NCBI GenBank assembly: GCA_030065275.1
Contig: JASJCV010000013.1
Span: 1 to 35,031 of the forward strand
Reading direction: 5' to 3'
Length of the DNA: 35,031 nucleotides
Origin: Desulfobacterales bacterium
Lineage (GTDB): Bacteria > Desulfobacterota > Desulfobacteria > Desulfobacterales > UBA5852
Below are positions 573 through 22,003 of the stretch, in pieces (positions within the stretch are counted from its first letter, which is position 1; each line of letters starts with the position of its first letter). Below the pieces are notes generated by a model. The model saw only the letters and a program-made list of their open reading frames with translations. It made no database searches and was not told the DNA's origin. Position numbers and translations under genes: made by a program.

Positions 573-1349
573 GATCGCAGCCCTATCTTTTCACGTTACC
601 GATTGTCTACGTGCATAGCGGAGTAGCGCCCAAAGGCGCTGAATGGCATCGTCGACCGGGTACGGTTTCGGGGATGGACTATCCCCAAGACCACTGCCGG
701 GGCACGCTTGCAGTTCCCCTGCCGTTTAACACGGGCGCGTGCGCTTCAGGGTAAGGGCGGACGCGTACTTAGAGCGATCGTGCGGAAACCAGCTGGATCT
801 GTTTCCAGGAATCGGCCTGACTTGAGATCCGGCCGGCAACAAAAGGCCGCTTCCGCGCGGATTATTCCCAGGAGGGCACATGCGAATGTCCGCGATCCGG
901 CCGTTGCCGTCAACCCGGCCATGGCCGTATCCATCTTAAAATAGGCCGTAAGCTGAACGCCTGGGCCTCCATGCCCGTGTGGAATAGCTCCGCGAACCGG
1001 CGTCGCTTCCGCGCGGCAGGGATCAGGAAAGCGACTTTGCTGTTGAATGTGGTCTTGACCCTCTTGCAGGCGGTGGTGGCAACCACTTAGGTCGAGCATC
1101 CCGGGGGTCGCGGTGGCTCATAGATTCATCAACACATGGTCGTCTCTTAAGCTGTCGACCACCAGCGCCGCCTCGCGCACCAGCCCAAGCGAACGCTGGG
1201 TGGACGTATCCCCGCTTGCTTTCAAGCCAAACCATGCCTCCGGACGGCCATGGACGGCCGTCTTGACCCCCGGCGCGTAATTGTCTATGTTCGCCCCTTA
1301 TCAGGAACCTTTTTTCCCCCACCGTCCCCACCAACCAGAGACGAGATGC
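573..1349. other. Long intergenic stretch without a convincing gene
   Basis: About 780 bases between the decarboxylase and the transglycosylase. The ORFs in the track here (for example 746-1099 minus and 708-944 plus) have no recognisable motif, overlap each other on opposite strands, and look like GC-rich shadow frames. A 13-base direct repeat, CGCTTCCGCGCGG, occurs at 848-860 and 1004-1016. I see no tRNA, no clear riboswitch and no insertion-sequence ends. It may be decayed coding DNA or a large 5' leader. Confidence 0.4.
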
Positions 1350-2798
1350 ATGCGGCCTATAATCCTGATTCTGGCACTGACATCAGTACTGGCCGCAGGT
1401 GACCGCGCCGCGGCCGCCGACAGCCTCGCGACGACCACCATCGTTAGCAGCACCAAACCCTGGACGGAGGATCTGGACGGCATGCGGGAACGCCGCACCA
1501 TCCGGGCCCTGGTGACTTACAGCAAGACGTTCTACTTCCTGGACGGACCGCGGCAGCGGGGGATATCCTATGAACTGCTCAAGCAGTTCGAGACTTTCGT
1601 CAACCGCAAATTCAACACCGGCAATCTCAAAATCAACGTGATCATCATTCCGGTGGCACACAACGAGCTTCTGCCGGCCCTGGTCAAGGGGCGCGGTGAC
1701 ATCGCCGTCGCCAATCTGACCGTAACGCCCCAGCGACGCCGGCAGGTCGATTTTTCGGCGCCGTTTATCACCGACGTCAAGGAACTCGTGGTTACGAAGT
1801 CCGGGGTCGCACCCCTGACCCGGCTCGAGGACTTCGCCGGCCTGACCATCGAGGTGCGCCGATCCAGCAGCTATTACGAAAGCCTGAACGCGCTCAACCG
1901 GAAGCTCAGATCCCGGGGTCTTGCCCCCGTGCGGATCGAACCGGCCGACGAAATACTGGAAGACGAAGACCTGCTTGAAATGGTCAACGCCGGCCTGCTG
2001 CCCGCCATCGTGATGGACAGCCACAAGGCGCATTTCTGGAAGCAGATCTTCCCGGACATCCGGCTGCACGAAGATTTCCCGCTGCGCACCGGCGGCGAGA
2101 TCGCCTGGGCCTTCCGCTCCGGCAGCCCCCGGTTGAAAAAACTGGTCGATGAATTCGCGCGGGCGCATAAAAAGGGTACGATGATGGGCAACATTCTTTT
2201 CAAGCGCTACCTGCAGAACACGCACTGGGTCCGTAACGCCCTCTCGGCGGAGAGTCTGGCCCGCTTCCGTGACCTGGCCGCGCTTTTTAAGAAATACGCC
2301 GCGCGCTACGATTTCGACCATCTGATGATCATTGCCCAGGCCTACCAGGAATCCGGCCTTGACCACTCCAAGGTCAGTCCGGCCGGAGCCGTTGGGATCA
2401 TGCAACTGCTGCCCACCACGGCTGCCGCTGAGCCGGTGGGCATCAAGAATATCAAGCGCCTGGAAGACAACGTCCATGCCGGGGTCAAATACCTGCGCCA
2501 CATTCAAGACGTCTATCTGGCCGATGATGCCCTTGACCCTCTTAACCGCACGCTTTTCGCCTTTGCGTCCTACAACGCCGGCCCCAGCCGGATCAATGCC
2601 CTCCGCGAGGAAGCGGCCCGCCGCGGGCTGGATGCCAACCGCTGGTTTCACAACGTGGAAAACGTCGTCGCCCGGAAAATCGGCCGGGAAACGGTACAGT
2701 ACGTCAGCAACATCTTTAAATATTACATCGCCTACAGGCTGGCCGGCGAGAAGCTCGAACGCAAGCAGAACGCCGTGAAAGAAAAGGCCGCCAGCTGA
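1350..2798 (+). CDS. MltF-like membrane-bound lytic murein transglycosylase (solute-binding domain plus SLT domain)
   Basis: A protein of 482 residues. I chose the ATG at 1350 rather than 1281 because it gives a proper signal peptide (MRPIILILALTSVLAAG...). Residues about 45-270 form a family-3 periplasmic solute-binding fold, with the typical phrase RGDIAVANLTVTPQRR. Residues about 310-430 form a soluble-lytic-transglycosylase domain. Its AYQESGLD holds the likely catalytic glutamate (about E334), followed by GAVGIMQLLPTTA and FASYNAGPSRI, the usual SLT signatures. E. coli MltF has the same order of domains. In that family the SLT domain cleaves peptidoglycan to 1,6-anhydromuropeptides and the binding domain regulates it. 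It is expected in the periplasm, possibly membrane-attached. The next gene also carries a family-3 binding domain. Confidence 0.9.
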   Translation: MRPIILILALTSVLAAGDRAAAADSLATTTIVSSTKPWTEDLDGMRERRTIRALVTYSKTFYFLDGPRQRGISYELLKQFETFVNRKFNTGNLKINVIIIPVAHNELLPALVKGRGDIAVANLTVTPQRRRQVDFSAPFITDVKELVVTKSGVAPLTRLEDFAGLTIEVRRSSSYYESLNALNRKLRSRGLAPVRIEPADEILEDEDLLEMVNAGLLPAIVMDSHKAHFWKQIFPDIRLHEDFPLRTGGEIAWAFRSGSPRLKKLVDEFARAHKKGTMMGNILFKRYLQNTHWVRNALSAESLARFRDLAALFKKYAARYDFDHLMIIAQAYQESGLDHSKVSPAGAVGIMQLLPTTAAAEPVGIKNIKRLEDNVHAGVKYLRHIQDVYLADDALDPLNRTLFAFASYNAGPSRINALREEAARRGLDANRWFHNVENVVARKIGRETVQYVSNIFKYYIAYRLAGEKLERKQNAVKEKAAS

Positions 2799-2985
2799 GA
2801 ATGCCGCAAGGTATCGGCTTGGACGGTGTCGTCCCGACGGGTCCGGCGGCAGTCTGACGCCGGGCGGTCCCGGCCTTGACGTGGCGATCCGGCCAATCCC
2901 TGCCATCCCAGCGAACAAGCTGCCCCGGCACGGTTAACCGCTACCGCTGGTGTGGTGGTGTGGCCCGCTCCGGAGGTGAACTCGC

Positions 2986-5166
2986 ATGATGACAACCGCT
3001 CGACGTCGAGACCCATTGAGTCTCTCCAGCTGGATTCTGATCGGCATGGCCGCCGGGATCCTGTGCGGCATTTTTTTTGGGGAATACTGCGCCTTTCTGC
3101 AGATCTTCGGCGACGCGTTCATCAAGCTGCTGCAGATCACGATCCTGCCCTATATCTTCGTCTCCCTCATGCAGGGGCTGGGCGGCCTGAGCTACAATCA
3201 GGCCCGGCAGCTGGCGATCAAGGCCGGGATCCTATTGCTGCTCTTCTGGCTGATCGTCTTTGCCGTGATTGTCCTCATGGCCCTTTCGTTTCCCCACTCG
3301 GTTTCGGCCTCTTTCTTCAGTACGGCCCTGGTCGATATCCCCCCCCCGGTGGATTTTCTTCAGCTCTACATTCCCTCCAACCCCTTCGCCTCGCTGGCCG
3401 ACAACATGGTGCCCGCGGTCGTGCTCTTCAGCATCCTGGTCGGCGTGGCCCTGATCGGGATCGAGGAAAAGGAGACCCTCATCAGCGGTCTGAGTGCGAC
3501 GGCCAGCGCCCTTATCCGGGTCACGAATCTGGTCGTGAAGCTGACCCCCTTCGGTGTCTTCGCCATCGCGGCCGCCGCGGCCGGCACCATGACCATCGAG
3601 GAGTTCGGGCGCCTGCAGGTCTACCTGGTGACCTTCAACGCGGCCGTACTGCTTCTGACCTTCTGGGTGCTGCCCATGATGCTGGCGCCGGTCACGCCCT
3701 TCAAATACCGTGACGTGGTTCTGCTCTCACGCGACGCGCTGGTGACGGCCTTCACCACGGGCAACCTCTTCGTGGTGCTCACCGTGCTGACCGAAAACTG
3801 CAAGTCTTTGTTTGAGAAGTACAATCTCAAGCGGGACAAGACCGAGGCCTACATTGACGTGATCATTCCGGTCTCGTTCAACTTTCCCAACATGGGCAAG
3901 CTGATCATGCTGCTCTTCATCTTGTTTGCCGCCTGGTTCACGGGCACAACTTTAGGGGTGGAGGACTACGCCACTTTCGTCTTCTCGGGGCTCTTGAGCT
4001 TCTTCGGGGGGGTGGACGTGGCCCTGCCTTTCATGCTCGATCTCATGCGCCTGCCCGCGGACATGTATCAGCTCTATGTGGTCACCGGTATCCTCAACGG
4101 GCGTTTCGCCACCCTGCTGGCGGCCATGAACCTGATCGTCTTCACCCTCCTGGCGACAGCCTCGCTGACCGGGGTCATGGCCGTCAACACGAAGAAAATA
4201 CTGGTTTACGCGGCCACGTCGCTCCTGATTACGGCCGGTGTGATCGGCGCCACCCGCGTCTATCTGGGATTCGCCGTTACCAACCAGTACGAGAAGGACA
4301 AGTTATTGGCCGGCATGCAGACCTTGGTGGGCGCCACGGCCAAGGTGGTGCACCGCAAGATGCCGGAGGATCCGCCGCCGGCCGACGACCGGAAGGTGCT
4401 CGAACGTATCAGCCAGACCGGCATCCTGCGGGTGGGCTATCACCCGGACAACCTGCCTTTTTCCTTTTTCAACATCAACGACCAGCTGGTGGGGTTCGAC
4501 GTGGACATGGCCCTCCTGCTCGGTCTTGATCTGGGGGTCCGGGTGGAGTTTTATCCGATTACGTTTCGCACCATGGCCGCGGCCCTGAACGAGCACCGGG
4601 TCGACATCGTCATGGCCGGGGTCCACACGACCGCGGACCGCCTGCGGCAGATGCATTTTTCAGAGTCCTATCTGGATGCCACGGCGGCTTTCGTGGTGCG
4701 GGACCACCGTCGGGGCGCATTCACACACCCGGATGAGATCCGTAAGGTCAAGAACCTCAAAATCGGTATTCCGCGCACGATGGGGATCCATGAAGGTGAT
4801 TTCCAGCTCTATCTGCCCGATGCCAAGACGACGACCATCGAGTCCCCCCGTGATTTTTTCAGCAACATGCATCCGAATATGGATGCCATCGTGCTGACGG
4901 CCGAAGCCGGCTCGGCCTGGACCTTGATTTATCCCAACTTCCAGGTGGCGGTACCCAAACCGGATATCGTCAAGATCCCGCTGGCCTATCCCGTGGCCGG
5001 TCGCGACGATGAAATGGCCGATTTCGTCAGCCGCTGGATCGAGCTTACCCACAAGCAGCACCTGGACTTTCAAAGGATCTACGACCACTGGATTCTGGGG
5101 GCCGAGGCGGAAGAAAAGAAGCCGCGTTGGTCCGTGATCCGCGATGTGCTGGGGTGGGTGAAATGA
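2986..5166 (+). CDS. Sodium/proton:dicarboxylate-amino acid symporter fold fused to a family-3 solute-binding domain
   Basis: A 726-residue protein. Residues 1-430 are a multi-spanning membrane domain resembling the SDF/DAACS glutamate-aspartate transporters: an N-terminal hydrophobic helix, LLQITILPYIFVSLMQGLGGL, LTPFGVFAIAAAAAGT, and two re-entrant-like regions. Residues about 470-715 are a family-3 periplasmic binding protein (LRVGYHPDNLPFSFFN, VGFDVDMALLL, VDIVMAGVHTTADR). The key transport motifs are eroded. The serine-rich hairpin is replaced by LSRDALVTAFTTGN, the NMDGT-like element reads FNFPNMGKL, and the substrate-binding region reads ILNGRFATLLAAMN. The fold call is firm. Whether it still transports, or acts as a ligand sensor, is open. 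It follows the MltF-like gene after a 187-base gap on the same strand. Confidence 0.8.
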   Translation: MMTTARRRDPLSLSSWILIGMAAGILCGIFFGEYCAFLQIFGDAFIKLLQITILPYIFVSLMQGLGGLSYNQARQLAIKAGILLLLFWLIVFAVIVLMALSFPHSVSASFFSTALVDIPPPVDFLQLYIPSNPFASLADNMVPAVVLFSILVGVALIGIEEKETLISGLSATASALIRVTNLVVKLTPFGVFAIAAAAAGTMTIEEFGRLQVYLVTFNAAVLLLTFWVLPMMLAPVTPFKYRDVVLLSRDALVTAFTTGNLFVVLTVLTENCKSLFEKYNLKRDKTEAYIDVIIPVSFNFPNMGKLIMLLFILFAAWFTGTTLGVEDYATFVFSGLLSFFGGVDVALPFMLDLMRLPADMYQLYVVTGILNGRFATLLAAMNLIVFTLLATASLTGVMAVNTKKILVYAATSLLITAGVIGATRVYLGFAVTNQYEKDKLLAGMQTLVGATAKVVHRKMPEDPPPADDRKVLERISQTGILRVGYHPDNLPFSFFNINDQLVGFDVDMALLLGLDLGVRVEFYPITFRTMAAALNEHRVDIVMAGVHTTADRLRQMHFSESYLDATAAFVVRDHRRGAFTHPDEIRKVKNLKIGIPRTMGIHEGDFQLYLPDAKTTTIESPRDFFSNMHPNMDAIVLTAEAGSAWTLIYPNFQVAVPKPDIVKIPLAYPVAGRDDEMADFVSRWIELTHKQHLDFQRIYDHWILGAEAEEKKPRWSVIRDVLGWVK

Positions 5167-5273
5167 GATCGGCCCAACAGGCCGGCGCCGCCCTGCGATT
5201 GGCTCGGCCGCCGCTTGTCAATCAATAAGCTTTTGGCTATGATCATCCAGACCCGCGACGGCCAAGGATTCAG

Positions 5274-5882
5274 ATGACGCACACACACCTCATTGCCTGC
5301 CATGAATGCGATCTGGTGCACCAGCTCGGTGCGATCCCGACGGGCGGTGCCGCCCGCTGTTCGCGCTGTGGGGCCACCCTCTACCGCCCCAAAGCCGACA
5401 GCCTCAATCGCACCCTGGCCCTGGCTCTGACCGGTGTAATCCTTTACATCATCGCCAACACGCATCCCTTCCTGGGCTTTCAGATCGGCGCCCAGATCCG
5501 TGAAACCACCCTGGCCACGGGCATTTTTCAGCTTTACCAGCAGGAAATGCGAACCATTGCCACCCTCGTGCTGATCACTGTGGTGATCGTCCCGGCAATC
5601 CATTTGGTCAGCATGCTTTATATTCTCCTGCCATTGAACTTGAAGGTGGTGCCGCATCATCTGGCCGGTGTGCTGCGTTTGGTGATTTTTCTCAAGCCTT
5701 GGGGCATGATGGAGGTCTTCCTGCTGGGCATCCTGGTATCCGTGGTCAAGCTCGTCAAGATGGCCACCATCATTCCCGGAGTGGCGCTGTATGCTTTTCT
5801 GGCCTTGATCTTCGTTCTGGCCGCCATGATGGTGACCCTGGACGAGCATGAAGTCTGGGAACGCGTGGAGCATGCACCATGA
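5274..5882 (+). CDS. pqiA: PqiA family membrane protein, first half-protein
   Basis: A protein of 202 residues starting with a small zinc-ribbon-like motif (CHECD...CSRCG), followed by four hydrophobic segments (LALALTGVILYIIANTHPFLGF; ATLVLITVVIVPAIHLVSML; a third after LVIFLKPWGMMEVFLLGILVS; and ALYAFLALIFVLAAMMV). The phrases NTHPF and KPWGMMEVFLLGILVSVVKL are typical of the PqiA/YebS family. E. coli PqiA contains two such units in one chain of about 417 residues; here each unit is its own gene. The stop overlaps the start of the next gene as ATGA. It is the inner-membrane component of the Pqi MCE system. Confidence in the family is high. Confidence 0.9.
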   Translation: MTHTHLIACHECDLVHQLGAIPTGGAARCSRCGATLYRPKADSLNRTLALALTGVILYIIANTHPFLGFQIGAQIRETTLATGIFQLYQQEMRTIATLVLITVVIVPAIHLVSMLYILLPLNLKVVPHHLAGVLRLVIFLKPWGMMEVFLLGILVSVVKLVKMATIIPGVALYAFLALIFVLAAMMVTLDEHEVWERVEHAP

Positions 5883-6514
5883 GAAACCAACCGCCAACGG
5901 CGCGCCGTCTGGGCCTGGTGGCCTGTCGCAGTTGCCACTTGCTGAACCAGCGGCTGGAAACGGCCGTCGACTGCCCCCGGTGCGGGGCCCCGCTTCACAG
6001 CCGCAAACCCAACAGCATCGCCAGGGCCTGGGCGCTGGTATTGGCGGCCGCGGTGTTCTACATCCCGGCCAATGTACTGCCCATCACCCACACCACCTCG
6101 CTGGGGGCGGTGCAGTCCGATACGATCATGAGCGGCGTGATCTATTTCATTCATTCGGGCAGCTGGCCGGTGGCCCTGGTCATTTTCGTGGCCAGCGTCT
6201 TTGTGCCCCTGCTCAAACTTCTGATCCTGGCGTTTCTGCTGCTGTCGGTACAGCGGCGCTGGCAATGGCGCCCTGTCGACCGCACGCGTCTTTACAGGCT
6301 TACCGAGGTCATCGGGCGCTGGTCCATGCTCGATATCTATGTGGTGACCATCCTGGTGGCGCTGGTCCACTTGGGAGCGCTGGCCACCATCGAAGCCGGT
6401 CCGGGTGCCGTCTTCTTCGCCGCCGTCGTGGTGGTCACCATGTTGGCGGCCGAGGCCTTCGACCCTCGTCTCATCTGGGACAATATGGAGAAAAGCCATG
6501 AGCGTGCCGACTGA
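5879..6514 (+). CDS. pqiA: PqiA family membrane protein, second half-protein
   Basis: A protein of 211 residues with the same plan as the preceding gene: a cysteine pair motif (CRSCH...CPRCGAPL), then hydrophobic segments and the family phrases LVLAAAVFYIPANVLPI and GRWSMLDIYVVTILVALVHLG. It corresponds to the second PqiA unit of the enterobacterial two-unit protein. The start overlaps the upstream stop by four bases (ATGA), and the downstream pqiB start lies inside its 3' end, so the whole operon appears translationally coupled. It is an inner-membrane partner of the MCE protein that follows. Confidence 0.9.
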   Translation: MRNQPPTARRLGLVACRSCHLLNQRLETAVDCPRCGAPLHSRKPNSIARAWALVLAAAVFYIPANVLPITHTTSLGAVQSDTIMSGVIYFIHSGSWPVALVIFVASVFVPLLKLLILAFLLLSVQRRWQWRPVDRTRLYRLTEVIGRWSMLDIYVVTILVALVHLGALATIEAGPGAVFFAAVVVVTMLAAEAFDPRLIWDNMEKSHERAD

Positions 6515-8168
6515 CGACGCTGCTATGCCGACCAATGCCCCCCAGCCGGACATCAGGAAAAAACGCTCGATTTCCATCGTCTGGATCGTTCCCGTAGTGG
6601 CCATCCTGATCGGGGGGTGGCTGGTGTTCAAGGCCGTCACTGAAAAAGGACCCACGATCTTCATCACGTTCCGCACCGCCGAAGGCTTGGTGGCCGGCAA
6701 GACCAAGGTCCGGTTCAAAGACGTCGAGGTCGGGACGGTACAATCCATCGTCATCACGGACGACCTCTCGCATGTCCGCCTGACCGTGGAAATGGTCAAG
6801 GGCGCCAGGCCCTTTCTGAAGCAGGGCGCCAAGTTCTGGGTGGTGCGGGCGCGGGTGGCGGCCGGCCATGTATCGGGTTTGGGAACCCTTTTCTCCGGCG
6901 CCTATATCGGCATGGAACCCAGCACCGAGGGTGAGCCGCAGCGCGAGTTCGAGGGCCTGGAAGCGCCGCCGGTGGTGATGGCCGACCAGGACGGCTACCA
7001 GTTCAGCCTCACCGCCGACCGGCTGGGGTCGCTCAATTTCGGATCCCCGGTTTACTACCGCCAGATCCAGGCCGGCCAGGTGATGGGCTATTCCCTCGAT
7101 CCGACCGGCAATAGCGTGACCATCAAGATTTTCATCAACGCCCCTTACCACAATCACGTGCGCACCAATACGCGCTTTTGGGAGACCAGCGGCGTCCAGG
7201 TGAACCTGAGTGCCAGCGGCGTCCAGGTAGATACCGAATCCTTCGTTTCCATGATGATCGGCGGGATTGCCTTTGGGGTTCCCTCCCACGAGCCGTCCGC
7301 GGCCAAGGCGCCCGAAAACACCCGCTTCATCCTCTTCGATGATTTCGTCACTGCGGCCCAGCGGCAGTATACAGTCAAAAGCCGCGGCATCATGTTCTTC
7401 AGCGACTCGGTAAGGGGTCTTGAAGTGGGTGCGCCGGTCGAGTTTCAGGGCATCAAGATCGGCGAGGTCATCGATATCGATCTGCAGTTCGACCCGGAAA
7501 AGGTCGAGTTCCGGATCCCGGTGACAGTCGAGATCGAGCCGGAACGGATCGGGATGGGGTACTTGGAGCAGAGCCAAACCGAGGACCTGACCATGGACCA
7601 GAAACTGCTCGACAAGGGGTTGCGGGCCCAACTCAAGACCGGCAACCTCTTGACAGGCAGGCTTTTTATTGACCTGGATTTCCATCCGGACGCCGAACCG
7701 GCTGTCCTGCGCTCCATCGACGGCCAGGCCGTCATTCCCACCATCCCCACCACCATCGAGGCCATCACCGCCAGCCTGAACCGCTTTATGAAGCGTCTCG
7801 ACAAGATGCCCCTGGAGAGCATCGCCCGGGACCTTCAGCAGGCGGTGGCCGGGGTGGACCGCATCGTCAATTCGCCTGAACTGATGGAAAGCCTCGATTC
7901 GCTGAAACAGATCCTGGCCGATGTCCGGCAGCTGACCACCAGCGCCAATGCGGAAACCATGCCCCGGATCAATTCGGTGCTTGACCGGCTTGACCGCACC
8001 ATGCTCGAACTCAACGGGGTCATCAACGCGGACGCTCCCTTGCGGCACGATCTGCGCGCGACCCTGAATGAGCTTGCCGGCACCGCCCGCGCGTTGCGTG
8101 AGCTGGCCGAATTTCTGGACCGGCATCCCGAATCCCTGATTCGAGGGAAAGGAACCGAATCCCCATGA
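6498..8168 (+). CDS. pqiB: PqiB, MCE-domain intermembrane transport protein
   Basis: A protein of 556 residues from the ATG at 6498, which has GGAG upstream and overlaps the previous gene by 17 bases; the longer ORF from 6405 is a shadow of pqiA. A cytoplasmic N-terminus is followed by one membrane anchor (SIVWIVPVVAILIGGWLVF). Three MCE/MlaD domains come next, at about residues 50-145, 165-230 and 290-390, recognisable by repeated GxxVxFxxxxVGxV-type phrases (KTKVRFKDVEVGTV; SPVYYRQIQAGQVMG; APVEFQGIKIGEV). The C-terminal 140 residues are helical and coiled-coil-like (MKRLDKMPLESIARDLQQAV). In E. coli, PqiB forms stacked rings and a tube that bridges the periplasm for lipid movement, and this architecture matches. 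Confidence 0.94.
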   Translation: MSVPTDDAAMPTNAPQPDIRKKRSISIVWIVPVVAILIGGWLVFKAVTEKGPTIFITFRTAEGLVAGKTKVRFKDVEVGTVQSIVITDDLSHVRLTVEMVKGARPFLKQGAKFWVVRARVAAGHVSGLGTLFSGAYIGMEPSTEGEPQREFEGLEAPPVVMADQDGYQFSLTADRLGSLNFGSPVYYRQIQAGQVMGYSLDPTGNSVTIKIFINAPYHNHVRTNTRFWETSGVQVNLSASGVQVDTESFVSMMIGGIAFGVPSHEPSAAKAPENTRFILFDDFVTAAQRQYTVKSRGIMFFSDSVRGLEVGAPVEFQGIKIGEVIDIDLQFDPEKVEFRIPVTVEIEPERIGMGYLEQSQTEDLTMDQKLLDKGLRAQLKTGNLLTGRLFIDLDFHPDAEPAVLRSIDGQAVIPTIPTTIEAITASLNRFMKRLDKMPLESIARDLQQAVAGVDRIVNSPELMESLDSLKQILADVRQLTTSANAETMPRINSVLDRLDRTMLELNGVINADAPLRHDLRATLNELAGTARALRELAEFLDRHPESLIRGKGTESP

Positions 8169-8785
8169 GACGATTTGCGTTTCCAAGCCTTCTGACCGTT
8201 GTTTTTGCTTCCAGCCTGCTCTTCTTCGGGTGCGGTGGCAAGAGTGGCCCCACCACCTTTTATACGCTCAGTCCGATCGAGGCTGACCCGGCCGCATCCG
8301 CTGCTGGTTCAGCCGCCCCGGTCAATATCGGGATCGGGCCGGTAACCTTTCCGGACGAGCTCGACCGTCAGCGGATCGTCACCCGCAGCGGCCGCAACCA
8401 GCTTGAGATCAATGAATTTCATCGCTGGGGCGGATCGCTTGAAAACAACTTCGTGCGCGTGCTGGTCGAGAACCTGACGCTGCTGATGGGCAGCGAGCGC
8501 ATCATGGCCCAGCCCTGGGAGCGCTATTTTTCGCCGGATTTTCGGGTCGTCATGGACATCCGCCGATTCGATGGGCGTCTGGGGGAATTTGCCAGCCTGA
8601 ACGCCACCTGGATGCTTGTAAAGGCCGGCAGCGTCGAACCGCTGGTGGTCCGCCAGACGATTATCCAGGAGGCGGCCTCCGGCAAAGGCTATGATGCCCT
8701 GGTCGCCGCCCAGAGTGCGGCGGCGGCCACCCTCAGCCGGGAAATCGCCGCCGTGCTCAAGGAACAGGTCGCTGCCAAGCCCTGA
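8165..8785 (+). CDS. pqiC: PqiC-type outer-membrane lipoprotein (ABC transporter auxiliary component family)
   Basis: A protein of 206 residues whose start overlaps the pqiB stop (ATGA). The signal peptide ends in the lipobox LLFFGC, so the mature protein should be lipidated. After it come FYTLSPI and IGIGPVTFPDELDRQRIVTRSGRNQLEI, phrases typical of the PqiC/YmbA (ABC_trans_aux) family. In E. coli, PqiC sits in the outer membrane and contacts the far end of the PqiB tube. This gene closes the pqi operon; no strong terminator follows. Confidence 0.9.
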   Translation: MRRFAFPSLLTVVFASSLLFFGCGGKSGPTTFYTLSPIEADPAASAAGSAAPVNIGIGPVTFPDELDRQRIVTRSGRNQLEINEFHRWGGSLENNFVRVLVENLTLLMGSERIMAQPWERYFSPDFRVVMDIRRFDGRLGEFASLNATWMLVKAGSVEPLVVRQTIIQEAASGKGYDALVAAQSAAAATLSREIAAVLKEQVAAKP

Positions 8786-9135
8786 AGGGGCAGCGCCCAC
8801 CGCACAACGTCAGGCCCACACCCAAGGGACGCCGCCGTTGGGCACCCCTTCCGATCTTCTGCCCGCATCGCATTCTCACCGAGGATGATCCCCGTTTCGA
8901 TCCAACGGGAGAAGCCTCCGTCGAAGCCGTTCTGATAATTCAATTATGTAAAAATTTAATTGCCATAAGACAGTTATGTAATACATTATTTTTTAAATCT
9001 ATAGGGGTATATTGTAAAAATATAGATATAATAGGTGGTTATGTTTATTTCTCTGGTTTATAGAGCATGGTATGTTGTTTGCAGTCTGCATCAGGCTTAT
9101 CGGTATCCGTATCCGGAACTGCAAAGGTCTCAACC
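8786..9135 (+). promoter_or_regulatory. AT-rich leader upstream of nifA with candidate control elements
   Basis: The part from about 8935 to 9060 is sharply AT-rich against a GC-rich background. It holds two copies of TTATGTAA (8944-8951 and 8974-8981), spaced exactly 30 bases apart, about three helical turns. It also holds a TATAAT at 9027-9032, without a convincing -35 at 16-18 bases. No sigma-54 -24/-12 pair is visible. This is the most likely location of the nifA promoter and of any nitrogen- or redox-responsive operator. The function is inference. Confidence 0.45.
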
Positions 9136-10680
9136 ATGGTCGCAATGCAAATGGGTATGCGCAAAAATCAAGAGCTTCACGCCATTCTGGATGTCAGCCG
9201 GGTCCTGACGGCCTCTTTCGATCTGCGCGACAATCTGCACGAAGCCATGCAGATCCTGTCCTCACGGCTTGAAATGCAGCGGGGCTGCGTGTTCCTGCTG
9301 GACTCCGCCTCACAGGCGCTCAACATCGTGGCTGCGCATGGGTTAAGCCGGGAGGAAATCAAGCGCGGACGCTATTTCAGCGGGGAGGGCATCGTCGGCC
9401 AAGTGCTTGAAAACCGCGCCCCCATGTTCATCCCCAATATCGGCGACGAACCCAAGTTTCTGAACAAAACCGCTTCGCGCCCGGATAAATCCGGCATCTC
9501 CTTTTTTTGCATTCCCATCATGCTGGAGGACAACGCCCTGGGCGTCATCAGTGCCGATCGCATCTACTCCGAGGCCCATGGCAGTGTGGATGACGATCTG
9601 CGGGTGCTGCAGATCGTGGCCTCGCTCATTGCCCAGTTCGTCAAGTTGTATGAACATTTCAAACGCAAGGAAGATGAACTGGGGCAGTTGCGCCAGCAGT
9701 TGACCGAGCGCTTCAATCTGCCCAATATCATCGGAGAGTCGCGTGAACTGCAGCGTGTTCTCAAAAGCATCAAGAAGGTCGCCGCCACGGACACGACCGT
9801 ACTGCTGTTGGGAGAGAGCGGCACCGGCAAAGAGCTCATCGCCCAAACGCTGCACTACCAGAGCGCCCGTGCGGTCAATTCTTTTGTGGCCGTGAATCTG
9901 GCGGCGCTGCCTGAAAACCTGATCGAGGCCGAACTCTTCGGCGTCGAACGGGGGGCGTATACCGGTGCCACGGCGCGCCGGGTGGGACGTTTCGAGTCGG
10001 CCCACAAGGGGACGCTATTTCTGGATGAGATCGGTGAACTGCCCCTGGCCAGCCAGGTAAAGCTTCTGCGCGTTCTTCAGGAGCGCTCGTTCGAGCGCAT
10101 CGGCTCGTCCCGATCCCAGTCCGTCGACGTCCGTGTGGTGGCCGCCACCAACCGGGATCTGGAAGGTGAGGTGCGTCGCGGCAACTTCCGCGAAGATCTC
10201 TATTGGCGGCTGAATGTCGTTCCGGTCGTCCTGCCGCCGCTCAGGGAGCGTCGGGAGGATATCCCGCTGCTGACAGCGTATTACCTCCAGAAGTTCAACC
10301 GCGTTTACGGGCAGTCGGTACGGCTGGACGAAAAGGCGCTGGCAGCGCTGATTCAGTACCGCTGGCCCGGCAACGTGCGCGAACTGGCCAATACGATCGA
10401 GCGCTTCGTCATCATGGCGGACAAGGATGTGGTCGGGCTGGACGATTTACCGTCGAACCTGGCGGTCGAACGGATGATTACCGCTCCGGGAATGGACATA
10501 TCCCGCAGCCGCAATGACGACCTGGGCCTGGAGGTGCAGAACCTTGAGAAGAAACGGATCATCAAGGCGCTGCAGGACAACAATTTCGTCCAGAACCGGG
10601 CATCGCTGGCTCTGGGCATCACGCCGCGGCAGTTGGGCTACCGCATCAAAAAATACCAGATCGACCTGCGCAAGATCTAG
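9136..10680 (+). CDS. nifA: NifA-type sigma-54-dependent transcriptional activator
   Basis: A protein of 514 residues from the ATG at 9136, which is preceded by AAAGG; 9067 is an alternative start with no supporting homology. Residues about 15-170 form a GAF domain ([22 protein letters not shown]). Residues about 200-430 form the AAA+ domain, with Walker A GESGTGKE, the sigma-54 contact loop GAYTGA (Phe replaced by Tyr), Walker [10 protein letters not shown] and RWPGNVREL. The C-terminus is a Fis-type helix-turn-helix ([20 protein letters not shown]). It should activate the nifH promoter downstream, where a TGT-N10-ACA site is present. The linker after the AAA+ domain has no cysteine pair, so the oxygen-sensing cysteine motif of rhizobial NifA is absent. 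No nifL is adjacent. Confidence 0.93.
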
Positions 10681-10685
10681 AGGGG

Positions 10686-10767
10686 GTTCCAGGTTCGGGG
10701 CGCTCGGTTCGAGGTTGAGAGGTTTCTGGCTTTAAACGTCGGCATCCGACCAACCGGAACCTGGAAC
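10686..10767. repeat. Inverted repeat GTTCCAGGTTC in the nifA/lipoprotein convergent gap
   Basis: GTTCCAGGTTC at 10686-10696 is perfectly matched by GAACCTGGAAC at 10757-10767. The space between holds more copies of related GGTT-rich words (GGTTCGAGGTTGAGAGG). The element fills the gap between two convergent genes, so it may act as a bidirectional terminator or be a degenerate short tandem repeat. A T-run sits at 10786-10793, but partly inside the stop end of the minus-strand gene. Confidence 0.5.
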
Positions 10768-10784
10768 GGAGAAACCAGAACCGT

Positions 10785-11249
10785 TTATTTTTTTGCCGGC
10801 TGGAAGGGATTGCGGCTTTCGGCGATTTCCGAGATGACGGCGCCGGTCTTTTCATTCTCCACCCACAACTTGTAGAACCCGGTCCTCTCGTTGCTGCCGG
10901 GGTAGAACTGGCTGCGGACCTTATAGCGTTTGCCAGCCTCCACCTCGACGGCCAGCCGCGTAAAGGTTTTGATGGTCGTGATTCCTTGGGGAATCAAGGT
11001 GAGGGTGTAGCGTCCCGCACCCACGTGCAGGCGGGTGTGCGCCACATACAGACCCCTGGGCGATCCCGGTCTCACATTGACGACCTTTTCGTCCAGGGCG
11101 TGGATGCGGACACCTTGGTCCGGGGTGATGACGGCAATCTCAGATTCGGGCCGCGGCGGACCGGGATATTGCTGGTATGCCTTGGTGCAGCCGAACACGA
11201 GCAGTAAAACCACCAACCCCGCCAAACGTATTCTGTTCCCTGTTCCCAT
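10785..11249 (-). CDS. Small lipoprotein of unknown function
   Basis: A protein of 154 residues on the minus strand between nifA and nifH. The N-terminus is a lipoprotein signal (LAGLVVLLLVFGC, cysteine at about residue 21), followed by a proline-rich linker (YPGPPRPESE). The rest is predicted beta-rich, with alternating hydrophobic residues (RYTLTLIPQGI, RLAVEVEAGKRYKVRSQF), as in small immunoglobulin-like or PEGA-like envelope domains. I do not recognise a named family. It is transcribed divergently from nifH and convergently with nifA, so it is probably an unrelated envelope gene caught inside the nif island. Confidence 0.75.
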   Translation of the reverse strand: MGTGNRIRLAGLVVLLLVFGCTKAYQQYPGPPRPESEIAVITPDQGVRIHALDEKVVNVRPGSPRGLYVAHTRLHVGAGRYTLTLIPQGITTIKTFTRLAVEVEAGKRYKVRSQFYPGSNERTGFYKLWVENEKTGAVISEIAESRNPFQPAKK

Positions 11250-11369
11250 CTGCTAGTCCCTCGAGCGTTCTTCCTGAGGGCTTTGAACCCCGTTTAAATC
11301 GGACCGATCCGGCCGTGTGTATCTCGCCTGCGCGTTATAGCCGCCGAGACGCATTTTTGTCTACACTTT

Positions 11370-11385
11370 TGTGCCCGGCGACACA
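11370..11385 (+). promoter_or_regulatory. NifA upstream activator site TGT-N10-ACA
   Basis: The sequence is TGT, exactly ten bases, then ACA, which fits the NifA enhancer consensus perfectly. It lies about 120 bases upstream of the -24 element of the nifH promoter, inside the usual range for NifA sites. A second half-site-like TGT at 11388 lacks its partner. The role is inferred from consensus and position. Confidence 0.75.
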
Positions 11386-11504
11386 ATTGTTCCCCACAAC
11401 GGATGCCATCAGGCCGGCACAGGCCGTTCCCCCCAACGCTCAAAAAAAAATAAGCCCCGGATCAGCGGCGTTTTAAGCGATTCACCCCCTCCATGAGTCA
11501 GTTG

Positions 11505-11520
11505 TGGCACGCTCCTTGAT
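11505..11520 (+). promoter_or_regulatory. Sigma-54 (-24/-12) promoter of nifH
   Basis: TGGCAC-N6-TTGAT matches the sigma-54 consensus TGGCAC-N5-TTGCA/T in the -24 part and in spacing (12 bases from GG to the second conserved pair). The -12 GC reads GA. Transcription would start near 11531, leaving a leader of about 43 bases before nifH. Together with the TGT-N10-ACA site upstream and nifA next door, this supports NifA-driven transcription of the operon. Confidence 0.8.
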
Positions 11521-11558
11521 AGATAGGCTTTCAACTGAAAAGAAGTAAACTCAATTGA

Positions 11559-12397
<839 letters not shown>

Positions 12398-12398
<1 letters not shown>

Positions 12399-12421
12399 GG
12401 GCCGGCAAGGCCCGGAACCCC
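12398..12421 (+). other. Hairpin directly after nifH
   Basis: GGGGCCGG pairs with CCGG-AA-CCCC across a six-base loop (CAAGGC), with a two-base bulge. It begins on the last base of the nifH stop codon and is not followed by a T-run. It is therefore more likely an mRNA-stabilising or partial-attenuation hairpin, which would keep nifH transcripts more abundant than downstream genes, than a full terminator. Structure seen; role inferred. Confidence 0.55.
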
Positions 12422-12462
12422 ATTTACTACCAACGCAGAAGCATACGAGGAGAATCGTACCC

Positions 12463-12819
12463 ATGATTATGATCCGATCCATCGTTCGTCCCGAAAAGGT
12501 CGATGACGTCTTAGCCGCATTGATGGAGGCCGGCTTTCCCGGCGTTACCAAGATGTCCGTTGTGGGGCGCGGGAAGCAGCGGGGGATAAAAATCGGCGAG
12601 ATTACCTACGACGAGATCCCCAAGGAAATGTTGCTCACCGTGGTCAAGGACAACGACAAGGAGTTCGCCATCCGCACGATTATCAAGGCGGCGCGAACGG
12701 GAGACAAGGGGGCCTTCGGCGACGGGCGCATATTCGTGGTGCCGGTCGAGGAAGCCTACACCATCAGTTCGGGCATCAAAGAAACCGCCGAGGGCCAGAC
12801 GGAAGAGGTGGCGATATGA
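12463..12819 (+). CDS. nifI1: NifI1, PII-like nitrogenase regulator
   Basis: A protein of 118 residues from the ATG at 12463 behind GAGGAG; the longer ORF from 12388 lacks homology. It is a PII/GlnK-type trimeric fold: MIMIRSIVRPEKVDDVLAAL at the start, the T-loop region VVGRGKQRGIKIGEITYDEIPKEM, and GDGRIFVVPVEEAYTI near the end. In methanogens, NifI1 with NifI2 binds NifDK and blocks its activity under ammonium, and 2-oxoglutarate relieves the block. Its place between nifH and nifD is characteristic of this system. No uridylylation tyrosine of the GlnB type is evident in the T-loop. Confidence 0.94.
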   Translation: MIMIRSIVRPEKVDDVLAALMEAGFPGVTKMSVVGRGKQRGIKIGEITYDEIPKEMLLTVVKDNDKEFAIRTIIKAARTGDKGAFGDGRIFVVPVEEAYTISSGIKETAEGQTEEVAI

Positions 12820-13196
12820 AAGAAGTGGTCGCAATCGTGCGCATGAACATGATGAACAAGACCAAACAGGCTCTGGCCGAAGCCGGGCTGGGGTCAATCA
12901 CGGCCCGCAATGCCCTGGGGCGCGGCAAGGGGATCGTCGATATGCAGCTGCTTCAGGGGGCGGAACACGGCTACGAAGAGGCCATCGCCCAACTGGGCCA
13001 GAGTCAGCGCCTGATTCCCAAACGGGCGATCCTGATGGTGGTCAACGACGATCTCGTCGAAAAGGCCGTCAACACCATCATTACGACCAATCATACCGGC
13101 AAATCGGGCGACGGGGTGATCTACGTCATGCCCTGCACCGAAGCCGTTCGCGTTCGCACCGGTGAGCGCGGTGAAGACACGTTGGACGATGGGTGA
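12816..13196 (+). CDS. nifI2: NifI2, PII-like nitrogenase regulator
   Basis: A protein of 126 residues whose start overlaps the nifI1 stop by four bases (ATGA), so equal production of the two partners is likely. The fold is PII-like: KEVVAIVRMNMMNKTKQALAEAG, a longer T-loop (NALGRGKGIVDMQLLQGAEHGYEEAI) and SGDGVIYVMPCTEAVRVRTGE at the end. The longer T-loop is what separates NifI2 from NifI1. With NifI1 it should form the post-translational switch acting on NifDK, removing the need for the DraT/DraG system, which is not in the window. Confidence 0.94.
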   Translation: MKEVVAIVRMNMMNKTKQALAEAGLGSITARNALGRGKGIVDMQLLQGAEHGYEEAIAQLGQSQRLIPKRAILMVVNDDLVEKAVNTIITTNHTGKSGDGVIYVMPCTEAVRVRTGERGEDTLDDG

Positions 13197-13255
13197 GCGC
13201 GCGGTCGTGCGAACCCTTTCATGTATCCCTGTATTCCATAAGAGGAGAATTTCCC

Positions 13256-14920
13256 ATGGCAATGGGCGCAAAGAATAACAAACCGACCAAAACGGTCCGG
13301 CCGGACCCCAAGGATCCTGCAACCATCAAAGACCGACTGCTGGCCAAGTATCCCCCCAAGGTGGCCCGCAAGCGTGCCAAGCAGATCGTCGTCAACAAGG
13401 TCAAACCGGGCGGTGATGTGCCGGTGATCAGTTCCAACGTGCGGACCGTACCCGGACTGATCGGACAGCGCGGCTGCTGCTATGCCGGCTGCAAAGGCGT
13501 CGTTCTGGGGCCCACGCGGGACATCATCAACATCACCCACGGCCCGATCGGCTGCGGTTTTTACAGCTGGCTGACCCGCCGCAACCAGACCGATCCGGAC
13601 AGCGGCGACGGCCAGAACTACATGCCCTATTGTTTTTCCACCGACATGCAGGACGAGGAAATTATTTTCGGCGGCGAGAAGAAGCTCAAACAGGCCATCC
13701 AGGAAGCCTACGACAACTTTAAGCCCAAGGCGATCGCCGTTTTCGCGACTTGCCCGGTGGGGCTGATCGGCGACGACGTCCATGCCGTCTGCCGCGAGAT
13801 GAAAGCCAAGCTGGGAATCAACGTCTTCGGGTTTTCGTGCGAAGGCTATAAAGGCGTCAGCCAGAGCGCGGGGCACCATATCGCCAACAACGGCATTTTC
13901 AAGCATGTGGTCGGTCTGGACGACACCGTCAAGGAAGGCAACTACCGCATCAACCTCCTGGGCGAGTACAACATCGGCGGGGACGCCTTCGAGATCGAGC
14001 GCCTTTTCGAAAAATGCGGGATAACGCTTGTGTCCAGCTACAGCGGTAACTCCAGCATCGATCAGTTCGCCAACTCGCACACGGCCGACTTGAACCTGAT
14101 CATGTGCCATCGCTCGATCAACTATGTGGCCGAGATGATGGAAACCAAGTTCGGGGTGCCCTGGATCAAGGTCAACTTCATCGGTGCGGCCGCCACGGCC
14201 AAGTCCCTGCGCAAGATCGCGCAATATTTCGACGAACCGGAGCTGACCGCGGTGGTCGAGAAGGTGATCGCCGAGGAAATGCCCGCCGTTGAGGCGGCCT
14301 GTGCCGATGTGCGCTCGCGGACCGAGGGCAAACGGGCCATGCTTTTTGTGGGCGGTTCGCGCGCCCATCACTACCAGGAGCTTTTCAACGAACTGGGCAT
14401 GAAGACGCTTTCGGCGGGCTACGAATTCGGGCACCGCGACGACTACGAGGGGCGCCGCGTGCTGCCGGACATCAAGGTGGACGCCGACAGCCGCAACATC
14501 GAGGAGTTGGCGATCGAGCCCGACCCGGAACGGTTCAATCCCCGGATCAGCGAGGAGAAAAAAGCGGATCTGGAGGCCGCGGGTCTGAAATTCGCCGAAT
14601 ACGAGGGCATGATGCCTGAAATGGAAGACGGCTCCCTGGTGATCGACGATCCCAGCCAGCACGAGACCGACGAGCTGATCAAACAGTTCAAGCCGGATAT
14701 CTTCTGCGCCGGCATCAAGGAAAAGTACGCCGTTCAGAAGCACGGCATCCCCTTGAAACAGCTGCACAGCTACGATTACGGCGGACCATACGCCGGATTC
14801 AAAGGGGCCGTCAATTTTTACAAGGAAATCGACCGCATGGTCAACAGCAAGGTGTGGCAGTACATGCGTGCGCCCTGGGAGGAGCACCCCGAGCTGTCCG
14901 CCACCTATGCCTGGGAATAA
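13256..14920 (+). CDS. nifD: Nitrogenase molybdenum-iron protein alpha chain
   Basis: A protein of 554 residues from the ATG at 13256, with AGGAG nine bases upstream. P-cluster cysteines are visible in GQRGCCYAG, HGPIGCGFY and ATCPVGLIGDD. FeMo-cofactor surroundings are conserved: QSAGHHIAN (Gln and His near the cofactor), the ligand cysteine in LIMCHRS, and the homocitrate-side histidine in LHSYDYGGPY. The chain is about 60 residues longer than Azotobacter NifD because of an insertion around residues 400-460 (YEGRRVLPDIKVDADSRN onward). Clostridium pasteurianum-type NifD has a comparable insertion. The C-terminal GPYAGFKG also matches that type. All ligand residues are present, so it should be active. 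Confidence 0.97.
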   Translation: MAMGAKNNKPTKTVRPDPKDPATIKDRLLAKYPPKVARKRAKQIVVNKVKPGGDVPVISSNVRTVPGLIGQRGCCYAGCKGVVLGPTRDIINITHGPIGCGFYSWLTRRNQTDPDSGDGQNYMPYCFSTDMQDEEIIFGGEKKLKQAIQEAYDNFKPKAIAVFATCPVGLIGDDVHAVCREMKAKLGINVFGFSCEGYKGVSQSAGHHIANNGIFKHVVGLDDTVKEGNYRINLLGEYNIGGDAFEIERLFEKCGITLVSSYSGNSSIDQFANSHTADLNLIMCHRSINYVAEMMETKFGVPWIKVNFIGAAATAKSLRKIAQYFDEPELTAVVEKVIAEEMPAVEAACADVRSRTEGKRAMLFVGGSRAHHYQELFNELGMKTLSAGYEFGHRDDYEGRRVLPDIKVDADSRNIEELAIEPDPERFNPRISEEKKADLEAAGLKFAEYEGMMPEMEDGSLVIDDPSQHETDELIKQFKPDIFCAGIKEKYAVQKHGIPLKQLHSYDYGGPYAGFKGAVNFYKEIDRMVNSKVWQYMRAPWEEHPELSATYAWE

Positions 14921-14976
14921 TTCAAACGCCGACCGGCGTGGTTCTGACCAACGACGCCCTTAGGAGATTGCAGATC

Positions 14977-16356
14977 ATGTTGCTGAGACATACACCGACT
15001 GAAATCAAAGAACGCAGCGCTTTGACCGTCAATCCGGCCAAAACCTGTCAGCCGATTGGGGCCATGTATGCCGCTCTGGGCATCCACGGCTGCCTGCCCC
15101 ACAGCCACGGCTCCCAGGGATGCTACGCCTATCACCGCAGCGCCCTGACCCGGCATTATAAGGAGCCGGTCGTCGCCGCCACCAGTGCCTTCACCGAGGG
15201 GGCTTCGGTCTTTGGTGGCCAGGCCAATCTGGTGCAGGCCATCGACAACATTTTTACGGTCTACAACCCCGACGTGATTGCGGTGCATACCACCTGCCTT
15301 TCGGAGACCATCGGCGACGACGTGCCGCAAATCTTCGCCAAGGCCAAGGCCGACGGCAAGGTTCCGGAGGGCAAGTACGTCCTCCATGCCAGCACGCCGA
15401 GCTATGTCGGCTCCCACGTCACGGGGTTCGCCAATATGACCAAGGCCATGGTGGACTATTTCGCCGAGTCCAATGGCCGCCGCGCGAAGACCGTCAACCT
15501 GATTCCGGGCTACGTGGAGCCCTCGGACATGACCGAGATCCGGCGGATCGCCGAGCTTATGGGCGTACCCACGATCATGTTTCCGGATACCGCCAAAGTC
15601 CTTAACGGGCCGCTCACGGGTAAGTACAGAATGTTTCCCGAAGGCGGCGTGACGATCGAGGAACTCAAAAAGAGCGGCAGCAGCGTCGGCACCATAGCCA
15701 TGGGACGCACCGCGTCCATGCCCGCGGCCCGGGCGCTGGATGCCAAGTGCAAGGTCCCCTGCGAGATCCTGGGCCTCCCCCTGGGGCTGCACGGTACGGA
15801 CGCGTTCGTGGACACCCTGCGCCGGATGGCCGGTGTCAGCGTGCCGGCGGCTCTGAATCTGGAGCGCGGCCAGCTGGTGGACAGCATCTCCGACTGGCAC
15901 CAGTACCTCTACGGCAAACGCGTGGCTCTTGTGGGCGATCCCGATCAGGTCTTGGCGCTGACCCGCTTTCTGGTCGCGCTCGACATGCAGCCCGTGCACA
16001 TCATTACCGGTACTCCGGCCGGGAAGAAATACGAAAAGTCCCTGCGTGAGGCCGTGGCCGGGGTGCCCGCCGATGTGAACATCAAAGTTCCCGGCGACAT
16101 GCTGCTCTTCCACCAGTGGATTAAAAACGCGCCGGTGGACCTGATCATCGGCAACACCTACGCCAAGTATATCGCCAAGGACGAGGACACACCGCTGATC
16201 CGCTACGGGTTCCCGATTTACGACCGCCTGGGGCACAGCTACTTCGCCACCATGGGCTACCGCGGCGCGCTGCGCCTCCTGGAGAAGCTGCTGGATGCCA
16301 TCCTGGACCGCAAGGATCGTGACGCGGATGACATCGACATGGAACTGGTCATGTAA
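14977..16356 (+). CDS. nifK: Nitrogenase molybdenum-iron protein beta chain
   Basis: A protein of 459 residues from the ATG at 14977, with AGGAG at 14962; the longer ORF from 14854 overlaps nifD and should be ignored. P-cluster ligand cysteines appear in AKTCQPIG, GSQGCYAYHR and TTCLSETIGDD, and the nearby serine in TPSYVGSHVTGF. The N-terminus lacks the roughly 50-residue extension of Azotobacter NifK. This short form pairs with the long NifD insertion in clostridial-type enzymes, consistent with the preceding gene. It forms the alpha2-beta2 MoFe protein with NifD. Confidence 0.97.
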   Translation: MLLRHTPTEIKERSALTVNPAKTCQPIGAMYAALGIHGCLPHSHGSQGCYAYHRSALTRHYKEPVVAATSAFTEGASVFGGQANLVQAIDNIFTVYNPDVIAVHTTCLSETIGDDVPQIFAKAKADGKVPEGKYVLHASTPSYVGSHVTGFANMTKAMVDYFAESNGRRAKTVNLIPGYVEPSDMTEIRRIAELMGVPTIMFPDTAKVLNGPLTGKYRMFPEGGVTIEELKKSGSSVGTIAMGRTASMPAARALDAKCKVPCEILGLPLGLHGTDAFVDTLRRMAGVSVPAALNLERGQLVDSISDWHQYLYGKRVALVGDPDQVLALTRFLVALDMQPVHIITGTPAGKKYEKSLREAVAGVPADVNIKVPGDMLLFHQWIKNAPVDLIIGNTYAKYIAKDEDTPLIRYGFPIYDRLGHSYFATMGYRGALRLLEKLLDAILDRKDRDADDIDMELVM

Positions 16357-16498
16357 AGCGCGTCGAATAGCGGCGCCTCAGGCGGTCATGCGGCGTTGGC
16401 GAACTCCGGTAAATGCTCACAACCAGAAGGTTGCTGCGCTTTCCCGATCGTCCGCCGCCTTGCCTGACAGCCTGATGCTTGCTCTTCGACGCGCTTTA
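16354..16498. repeat. 145-bp palindromic element in the nifK-nifE gap
   Basis: The outer arms TAAAGCGCGTCGAA (16354-16367) and TTCGACGCGCTTTA (16485-16498) are a perfect 14-base inverted repeat. At the exact midpoint is a hairpin, CAACC-AGAA-GGTTG (16420-16433). Between them are further imperfect complementary words (CTCAGGCGG against CCGCCTTGCCTGA). The left arm overlaps the nifK stop codon. The design looks like a non-autonomous palindromic mobile repeat or a long structured RNA within the transcript. Its occurrence elsewhere in the genome cannot be tested here. Confidence 0.75.
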
Positions 16499-16550
16499 TC
16501 CAACCGTTCCTCACAAGGTTATTAGCAATTTCTTTATTCAGGAGAAGATC

Positions 16551-19297: not shown

Positions 19298-19646
19298 GCC
19301 GCGTGTGAATATCTACTCATGTTGAGGGTTATGTGAATATGTCAAATCAGCCCGTTACAGGCGTTATGTTCATTTTCTTGCGCGCGCAAGAAAACGAACC
19401 AAAAGAAAGCGCCCGCGTCCCGTGGTCCCTTCGGGACTTCCCTGCGCGTCGCCGCTACGGACGGCGCCCGCGGAAACGCGCTGCGCTCAGACAGGTCCGC
19501 GGGCTTTTCCCGTCCGCATCGTCGATGCTCGGCACGGAACAATGGGGATATCTCTCGCAACGCGTGAGCACGATGACCAGCGGGCGGCGATGGGCTGCGC
19601 TTAATGGGTATCATTGCTGTGGTAACCGTATGGAAAGGGTTTTGCC
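19298..19646. repeat. Structured non-coding spacer between nifN and nifB
   Basis: This 349-base gap has no believable gene. It holds a perfect 22-base palindrome centred on CTTGCGCGCGCAAG (19373-19394), then AACGAACCAAAAGAAAGCGC, a GTCCC-TTC-GGGAC hairpin (19425-19437) and a terminator-like stem (19466-19508). The combination resembles intergenic repeats I have seen in many proteobacterial genomes, where their ORFs are often wrongly annotated. That recollection cannot be verified here. No sigma-54 consensus is visible upstream of nifB. Confidence 0.6.
19466..19508 (+). terminator. Terminator-like stem-loop upstream of nifB
   Basis: GCCCGCGGA (19466-19474) pairs perfectly with TCCGCGGGC (19496-19504). 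The 21-base loop contains a smaller GCGCTGCGC fold, and TTTT follows directly. The stem is strong but the T-run is short. If active, it would reduce read-through from nifHDKEN into nifB, or end transcripts that start within the spacer. Confidence 0.5.
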
Positions 19647-21068: not shown

Positions 21069-21131
21069 AAAAGGTTTAAGATGATAACTTTGCTACCGGA
21101 CGTTTTACGAAACCGTCCCAAAGGAGGAATA

Positions 21132-21437: not shown

Positions 21438-21454
21438 GGATATCGGCCGGTTGT

Positions 21455-21477: not shown

Positions 21478-21501
21478 TGATCCGATGTTGAGAGGAGTGA
21501 C

Positions 21502-21924: not shown

Positions 21925-22003
21925 GAAGCGTCCGCCTCGCCTGCCCTTGCCGGCGGTTCCGGTAAAGGACGCAATTAAATTGTCTGCCGAAAGGAAATCA
22001 GAA

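Follow-up and report, generated by a model that had tools for sequence, protein, structure and literature searches.

The DNA analysed here, referred to as the window, is a stretch of 35,031 nucleotides from a member of the Desulfobacterales. Near its start lies a fusion gene (P0001; 2986..5166, plus strand), embedded in the gene order MltF-like, fusion, PqiA-PqiA-PqiB(MCE)-PqiC (1281-8785), which is kept in the nearest relatives and the genus only. The upstream ORF (1281-2798) encodes an MltF-like transglycosylase with matches to SLT (E 2e-17) and SBP_bac_3 (E 2e-12). The two PqiA genes of the window are separate; locus L021 has, at this place, a single ORF of 402 amino acids that matches PqiA. 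Further downstream, at 9067-24548, reading of the translations alone suggests a nitrogenase-type cluster (nifH, nifDK-/nifEN-like, nifB-like radical SAM) and, after it, an ABC transporter of the molybdate type. This cluster could have its NifA-type regulator in the sigma-54 activator encoded at 9067-10680, in which Pfam finds GAF, AAA and HTH_8 domains.

The fusion ORF starts from ATG and is open throughout its 726 codons, with neither a stop nor a frameshift between the two halves. It encodes an SDF domain, an extra transmembrane helix (TM9), a family-3 solute-binding domain and a C-terminal tail, and this domain order is kept in 52 distinct full-length homologues. The SDF domain (residues 13-389; 3022..4152, plus strand) is matched by PF00375 over the whole profile (positions 1-383 of 387; E 9e-49; 166.9 bits against a cut-off of 27.9) and is also seen in an SDF-only AF2 model. 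The binding domain (residues 471-704; 4396..5097, plus strand) is matched by SBP_bac_3 (PF00497) over residues 481-703 (profile 1-130 of 132; E 4e-23; 82.3 bits against a cut-off of 26.4). Both matches are well over the curated cut-offs, the Pfam scan of the protein gives no other family, and both profiles are also hit by each of the 26 proteins in the first homologue alignment. Because the 52 full-length homologues come from many genomes, a chance or assembly fusion is ruled out. The fusion in one chain is real, just as the preliminary description of this DNA had proposed in joining an SDF-type symporter to a family-3 binding domain. It is the only PF00375 gene found in the genome assembly of the window, which is 81% complete.

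That description recognized both domains and overlooked two other elements, TM9 and the conserved tail. TM9 (residues 402-430; 4189..4275, plus strand) follows a positively charged loop and is a helix in both AF2 models. It is hydrophobic in 52 of 52 homologues, with a maximal 19-residue hydropathy of 1.71-3.01, and the loop ahead of it has a mean net charge of +3.1 over the same 52. In canonical SDF proteins such as GltPh, the C-terminus is cytoplasmic after TM8. The additional helix, together with the positive loop before it, would therefore bring the binding domain to the periplasm, as predicted from these sequence features. The tail (residues 705-726, GAEAEEKKPRWSVIRDVLGWVK; 5098..5163, plus strand) was delimited in the homologue alignment; its residue W715 has a weighted frequency of 0.84 over the 52 members, the rest being gap.

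The transport core and its replacement

The membrane domain was compared with GltPh in a multiple alignment with canonical SDF proteins and in a profile-profile alignment (probability 99.9%, E 1e-35), which agree on all substitutions given below for N310, M311, D312, T314, T92, S93 and S277-S279. HP1 (residues 249-278; 3730..3819, plus strand) is placed by the alignment to GltPh and by model helices 249-258 and 261-278. Its tip reads AFTTGN where the canonical sequence is the serine-rich RSSS (AFxTRSSS), and S277-S278-S279 of GltPh correspond to N260-L261-F262. TM7 (residues 286-319; 3841..3942, plus strand), placed by the profile-profile alignment, is broken at FNFPNMGK (residues 298-305, window 3877-3900; model break at 299-302), which occupies the place of NMDGT in GltPh. 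The NMD motif itself (N310-M311-D312) is absent, with P301-N302-M303 in its place in the alignment of 52 members to GltPh: N310 has become P301 in 49 of the 52, M311 is N302, D312 is M303 and T314 is K305.

A shortened HP2 (residues 325-353, with FFGGVDV; 3958..4044, plus strand) is seen in the alignments and the model. It has D344 and lacks the tip sequence GVPGAG of GltPh, being shorter there by 6-7 residues. About six tip residues are gone in all members except a clade of three (L075), where the tip is shortened as well. TM8 (residues 359-395, with GRFATLLAAMN; 4060..4170, plus strand) was identified by direct reading and the alignments; it has no acidic residue past D359, and D390, D394 and D405 of GltPh are therefore without counterpart. 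None of the Na3/Na1 ligands T92, S93 and D405 is kept: T92 corresponds to F87 and S93 to W88 (48 of 52 members), and no acidic residue of TM8 follows D359. In sum, no residue of the canonical Na+/substrate site is retained, except possibly R373. This arginine, kept in most members of the clade of the window, aligns to R397 of GltPh in the multiple alignment; in the global profile alignment it is displaced from R397 by two positions, and the equivalence is therefore uncertain.

With respect to published coupling signatures (PMC12668577), neither the Na+-coupled nor the H+-coupled set is present. Of the latter, only the change of T92 to a hydrophobic residue is found (F87); M311L, D405N and S279E are absent, with N302 at 311, no N at 405 and F262 at 279.

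The preliminary description had called the transport motifs eroded. The canonical Na+ ligands, NMDGT and the HP2 tip are indeed gone, but erosion is not what the comparison of homologues points to: as judged from the alignments, the canonical motifs are exchanged for another conserved set and are not decaying. In the clade of the window, N260, N299, P301, N302, G304, K305, D344 and R373 are near-invariant (D344 mostly), and other clades carry other core sets (TSSGTAR, LPQGNTY, SVAYKSY). The SDF half has a dN/dS of 0.09-0.16, indicating strong purifying selection; in most pairs, the binding half (0.15-0.29) is under weaker constraint.

Column entropies were taken from a 24-member, clade-like set comprising the window and members from Verrucomicrobiota, Kiritimatiellota and Cyanobacteriota. 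At the former membrane pocket, the mean is 0.52 bits against 1.15 for the whole SDF domain, and about 0.6 bits without the four positions used to select the set. The pocket residues of the binding domain, which were our own choice, have 1.96 bits against 1.83 for the entire binding domain; here R552 and the 597-602 loop are variable and E640 is fixed.

R552 and E640 are located in the ligand region of the binding domain. Its closest solved relative is AncCDT-1 (5t0w), both in sequence (E 3e-27) and in fold (TMt 0.86-0.88). Fold and sequence are thus like those of family-3 amino-acid binding proteins (AncCDT-1, ArgBP, HisJ). These have an arginine that binds the alpha-carboxylate of the ligand and an aspartate for the alpha-amino group, whereas in the fusions the arginine, R552 in the window, occurs in only 31 of 52 members, and the aspartate is replaced by A639/E640, the almost universal E640 lying one or two residues from the usual position.

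Distribution, origin and genomic context

The preliminary description presented the fusion as unusual. It is no one-off: homologue searches and the trees of both halves point to an old family of single origin in several phyla, here called SDF-SBP3. At least 52 distinct full-length homologues were gathered, in a sampling outside the Pseudomonadota. Among 291 genomes of the same class, 15 besides that of the window have relatives, in one case as a fragment only. The fusion also occurs elsewhere in the same phylum. Within the cyanobacterial phylum, 3 of the 194 genomes searched carry it, and in the phylum to which the Kiritimatiellota locus belongs the figure is 7 of 195. Taxa in the contig scan are Desulfobacterales, Desulfobulbaceae, Xenococcus, Cyanothece, Pontiella, Kiritimatiellaeota, Opitutales and Verrucomicrobia, and named cyanobacterial carriers include Xenococcus PCC 7305 and Cyanothece BG0011. 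Some genomes carry many copies. One of about 3.1 Mb (G926; loci L104, L106-L109, L120, L141-L147) has nine, among them a tandem pair (L120 5780-10351), and Xenococcus MO_188.B8 has five long frames that are SDF-positive. Broken copies, with pieces in several frames or with stops, were seen at L017, L074 and L078 (G092, G510 and G575).

The fused sequences are monophyletic in the SDF-half tree and in the binding-half tree, with 100% SH-aLRT each, both being quick trees in which long branches are flagged. The simplest account of the sequences would be one old fusion with joint descent and some lateral spread.

No recurrent neighbour of any kind was found across about 60 fusion loci. An RND pump, SpoIIE/STAS proteins, a RimK-like ATP-grasp protein, ribonucleotide reductase, phosphoglucose isomerase and others are each present at one or a few loci. 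As there is no consistent partner gene, the fusion probably acts alone. The MltF-like neighbour is common to the genus of the window and one other genome only, and MltF as a general partner is thereby ruled out. The preliminary description had remarked that this enzyme carries the same kind of binding domain. The domain is there; a pairing so confined is no evidence of a common function.

Several neighbourhoods may be recorded in their own right. At L121 (3560-8889), the fusion adjoins genes for a STAS protein and for a SpoIIE-type phosphatase that bears a dCache sensor; a distant genome has sequences related to both in the vicinity of its tandem fusions (L120 5780-16002). A RimK-like ATP-grasp ligase is encoded near the fusion in four related genomes (L119 5162-6145; L153 9774-10754; L154 6390-7370; L177 2174-3211). 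Efflux pump genes stand beside it in two distant genomes (L142 3043-13069, AcrB family confirmed; L156 1808-9541, outer-membrane efflux protein).

Separate genes for an SDF symporter and a family-3 binding protein also occur together. In the genus of the window (G293/G042), a family-3 binding-protein gene is followed after 48 bases by an intact SDF symporter gene and, close behind that, by an asparaginase gene, and in five further Desulfobacterales genomes (L123, L124, L125, L129, L131) an SDF gene adjoins a family-3 gene. The same-strand, adjacent intact pairs of these six genomes are found at L122 460-3798 (the same stretch as L114 6583-9921), L123 517-2817, L124 415-2820, L125 1495-3610, L129 539-4287 and L131 2-3757. 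Genes for asparaginase, an aspartase/fumarase-family lyase or malic enzyme lie beside some of them. It is likely that these pairs represent a two-gene, binding-protein-linked SDF system. In the binding-half tree, the neighbour-encoded proteins form a clade of their own and are not sisters of the fused domains; theirs is therefore a separate association and not the parent of the fusion. On this evidence, SDF transporters and family-3 binding proteins came together on at least two occasions, in the one case as neighbours, with the transport residues intact, and in the other as the fusion with its rebuilt core. Two independent associations raise the prior for a binding-protein-fed SDF system.

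Predicted structure and related systems

In the predicted structure, the elevator fold is of the GltPh type: both hairpins are there, and TM7 is broken. The SDF-only AF2 model (pLDDT 82.5, pTM 0.81) fits best to inward-facing apo GltPh (6x12; TM 0.72 by query, 0.78 by target) and poorly to outward-facing GltPh forms. In the full-length model (pLDDT 78, pTM 0.65), which also gave the fold match of the binding half to AncCDT-1, the SDF half fits 9bgz with TMt 0.81. The two predictions differ in elevator position. This hints at a mobile fold, yet it is no proof of mobility, because different alignments were used for them.

With the SDF/DAACS/SLC1 proteins (GltPh, GltTk, DctA, GltP), the fusions have in common the full SDF profile, HP1 and HP2, the broken TM7 and the inward-facing, GltPh-like model. 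They differ from them in lacking the NMD motif, the Na+ ligands and the HP2 tip and in adding a ninth helix and a binding domain predicted to be periplasmic, and they form a clade apart from every canonical member sampled. The top SDF match, both of the full-length sequence profile and, by fold, of the full-length model (TMt 0.75-0.81), is AncInt, a reconstructed Na+-uncoupled aspartate transporter (PDB 9bgy, 9bgz, 9bh0). In AncInt, unlike in the fusion, the NMD motif and the ion and substrate sites are unaltered (PMC12668577).

TAXI-GltS (BP0403/BP0402 and fusions in Lachnospiraceae) likewise links a binding protein, in the fusions within one chain, to an elevator transporter of the glutamate type that does not belong to TRAP/TTT (PMC12344293). 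Both of its parts, the TAXI binding domain (N-terminal in the fusions) and the GltS transporter (modelled as VcINDY-like), are, however, unrelated to those of SDF-SBP3, loss of coupling sites is not reported for it (PMC12344293), and neither domain appears in the Pfam scan of the fusion and its homologues. TRAP transporters resemble SDF-SBP3 in the concept of a binding-protein-dependent elevator; they have another membrane fold and a DctP or TAXI binding protein, and the fusion gives no Pfam match to DctM, DctQ, DctP or TAXI, only to PF00375 and PF00497. Ionotropic glutamate receptors have a ligand domain that is related to family-3 domains. No receptor-like pore domain was matched in the fusion, and its ligand domain is uninterrupted over residues 471-704.

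Transport or ligand control

Since the one-piece design recurs in several bacterial phyla, SDF-SBP3 is probably an undescribed class, either of capture-domain-dependent transporters or of ligand-controlled membrane proteins. The full fold of the SDF half and the purifying selection on it imply that the membrane part has a job.

The reading we prefer, tentatively and at slightly less than an even chance, is an elevator transporter that is complete in itself, is fed by its binding domain and dispenses with the classical coupling to Na+. The protein would be a trimer, as are other SDF proteins, and its periplasmic binding domain would capture a small amino-acid-like or carboxylate solute. Once closed, this domain might dock over the shortened HP2 and assume the role of the outer gate in place of the missing tip. 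The solute would then be handed to the rebuilt pocket and carried inward by the transport domain; going by the alignment, K305 and R373 are candidates for gripping a carboxylate in that pocket, and D344 for binding an amino group. The drive would not be the classical three Na+: either other residues would couple transport to protons, or there would be no coupling and the binding domain would provide the affinity. The architecture kept over several phyla, the joint inheritance of both halves, the retained fold under selection, TM9 with its positive loop, the lack of a partner gene and the separate gene pairs of Desulfobacterales count for this reading, and so does the precedent of TRAP, TT and the proposed TAXI-GltS, all elevator-type transporters using a binding protein (PMC12344293). 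The loss of every canonical Na+ and substrate residue, save perhaps R373, counts against it, as does the fixed membrane core beside a variable binding pocket, since a solute shared by both sites might be expected to vary both.

SDF-fold members are also able to conduct anions, between the scaffold and the transport domain. The chief rival, which we hold to be somewhat unlikely, is a receptor or ligand-gated conductance whose SDF part has given up solute transport and forms a ligand-controlled ion pathway or membrane sensor, while the family-3 domain binds the ligand. It would account for the joint loss of substrate sites, Na+ sites and HP2 tip, and for an invariant core below a variable ligand site, as if different ligands drive one common output. 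The large paralogue sets, up to the nine copies of G926 and the five frames of Xenococcus MO_188.B8, are as in receptor families, and the SpoIIE phosphatase with dCache and the STAS protein adjoin the fusion in one genome and have relatives near it in a second, distant one. On the other hand, the N-terminus is short and there is no cytoplasmic signalling domain, no recognized pore domain and no recurrent signalling partner, SpoIIE/STAS being present at 2 of about 60 loci. The further proposal that the elevator fold has been converted to a binding-domain-gated ion pathway or receptor, the fixed polar core replacing the old sites and the family-3 domain giving the signal, we regard as unlikely.

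It is quite improbable that the fusion is an ordinary SDF symporter, working by the usual mechanism with ligands re-placed beyond sequence recognition and with a binding domain that merely raises the local concentration. The full fold with its hairpins and TM7 break, R373 in most of the window clade and the T92-to-hydrophobic change, which also occurs in H+-coupled relatives (PMC12668577), are in keeping with such a symporter; the replacement of N310 (49 of 52), S93 (48 of 52), D312 and D405, the deleted HP2 tip and the missing D405N, M311L and S279E of H+-coupled proteins speak against it. A sensor of envelope stress, for peptidoglycan or lipid, acting with the adjacent MltF-like transglycosylase and PqiABC, is suggested by the gene order in the window and near relatives and by the family-3 domain which the MltF-like protein likewise bears. 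We consider it very improbable, in view of gaps of about 190 and 110 bases, which speak against tight coupling, and of the absence of the arrangement outside the genus, bar an MltF-like neighbour in one other genome. Finally, a non-functional transporter in decay, to which the lost motifs and the few broken copies might point, is hardly credible given a dN/dS of about 0.1-0.15 and a new motif set conserved across phyla.

Entries with the SDF and family-3 architecture are presumably present in domain databases; in open-access full text, no description of such a fusion, and no SDF-fold version of a binding-protein system with lost coupling sites, was found. The concept of a binding protein serving a secondary transporter is already known, the only systems put forward so far being TRAP, TT and, since 2025, TAXI-GltS (PMC12344293). 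The authors of the last-named work call for more classes, by which it could be seen if the elevator mechanism is the requirement (PMC12344293). If the transporter reading is true, SDF-SBP3 would be such a further class, built on the best-studied elevator fold, that of the human glutamate transporters. Having had its ion sites and outer gate exchanged in the course of evolution, the family also provides a natural test of which elements of this fold movement, coupling and gating each depend on.
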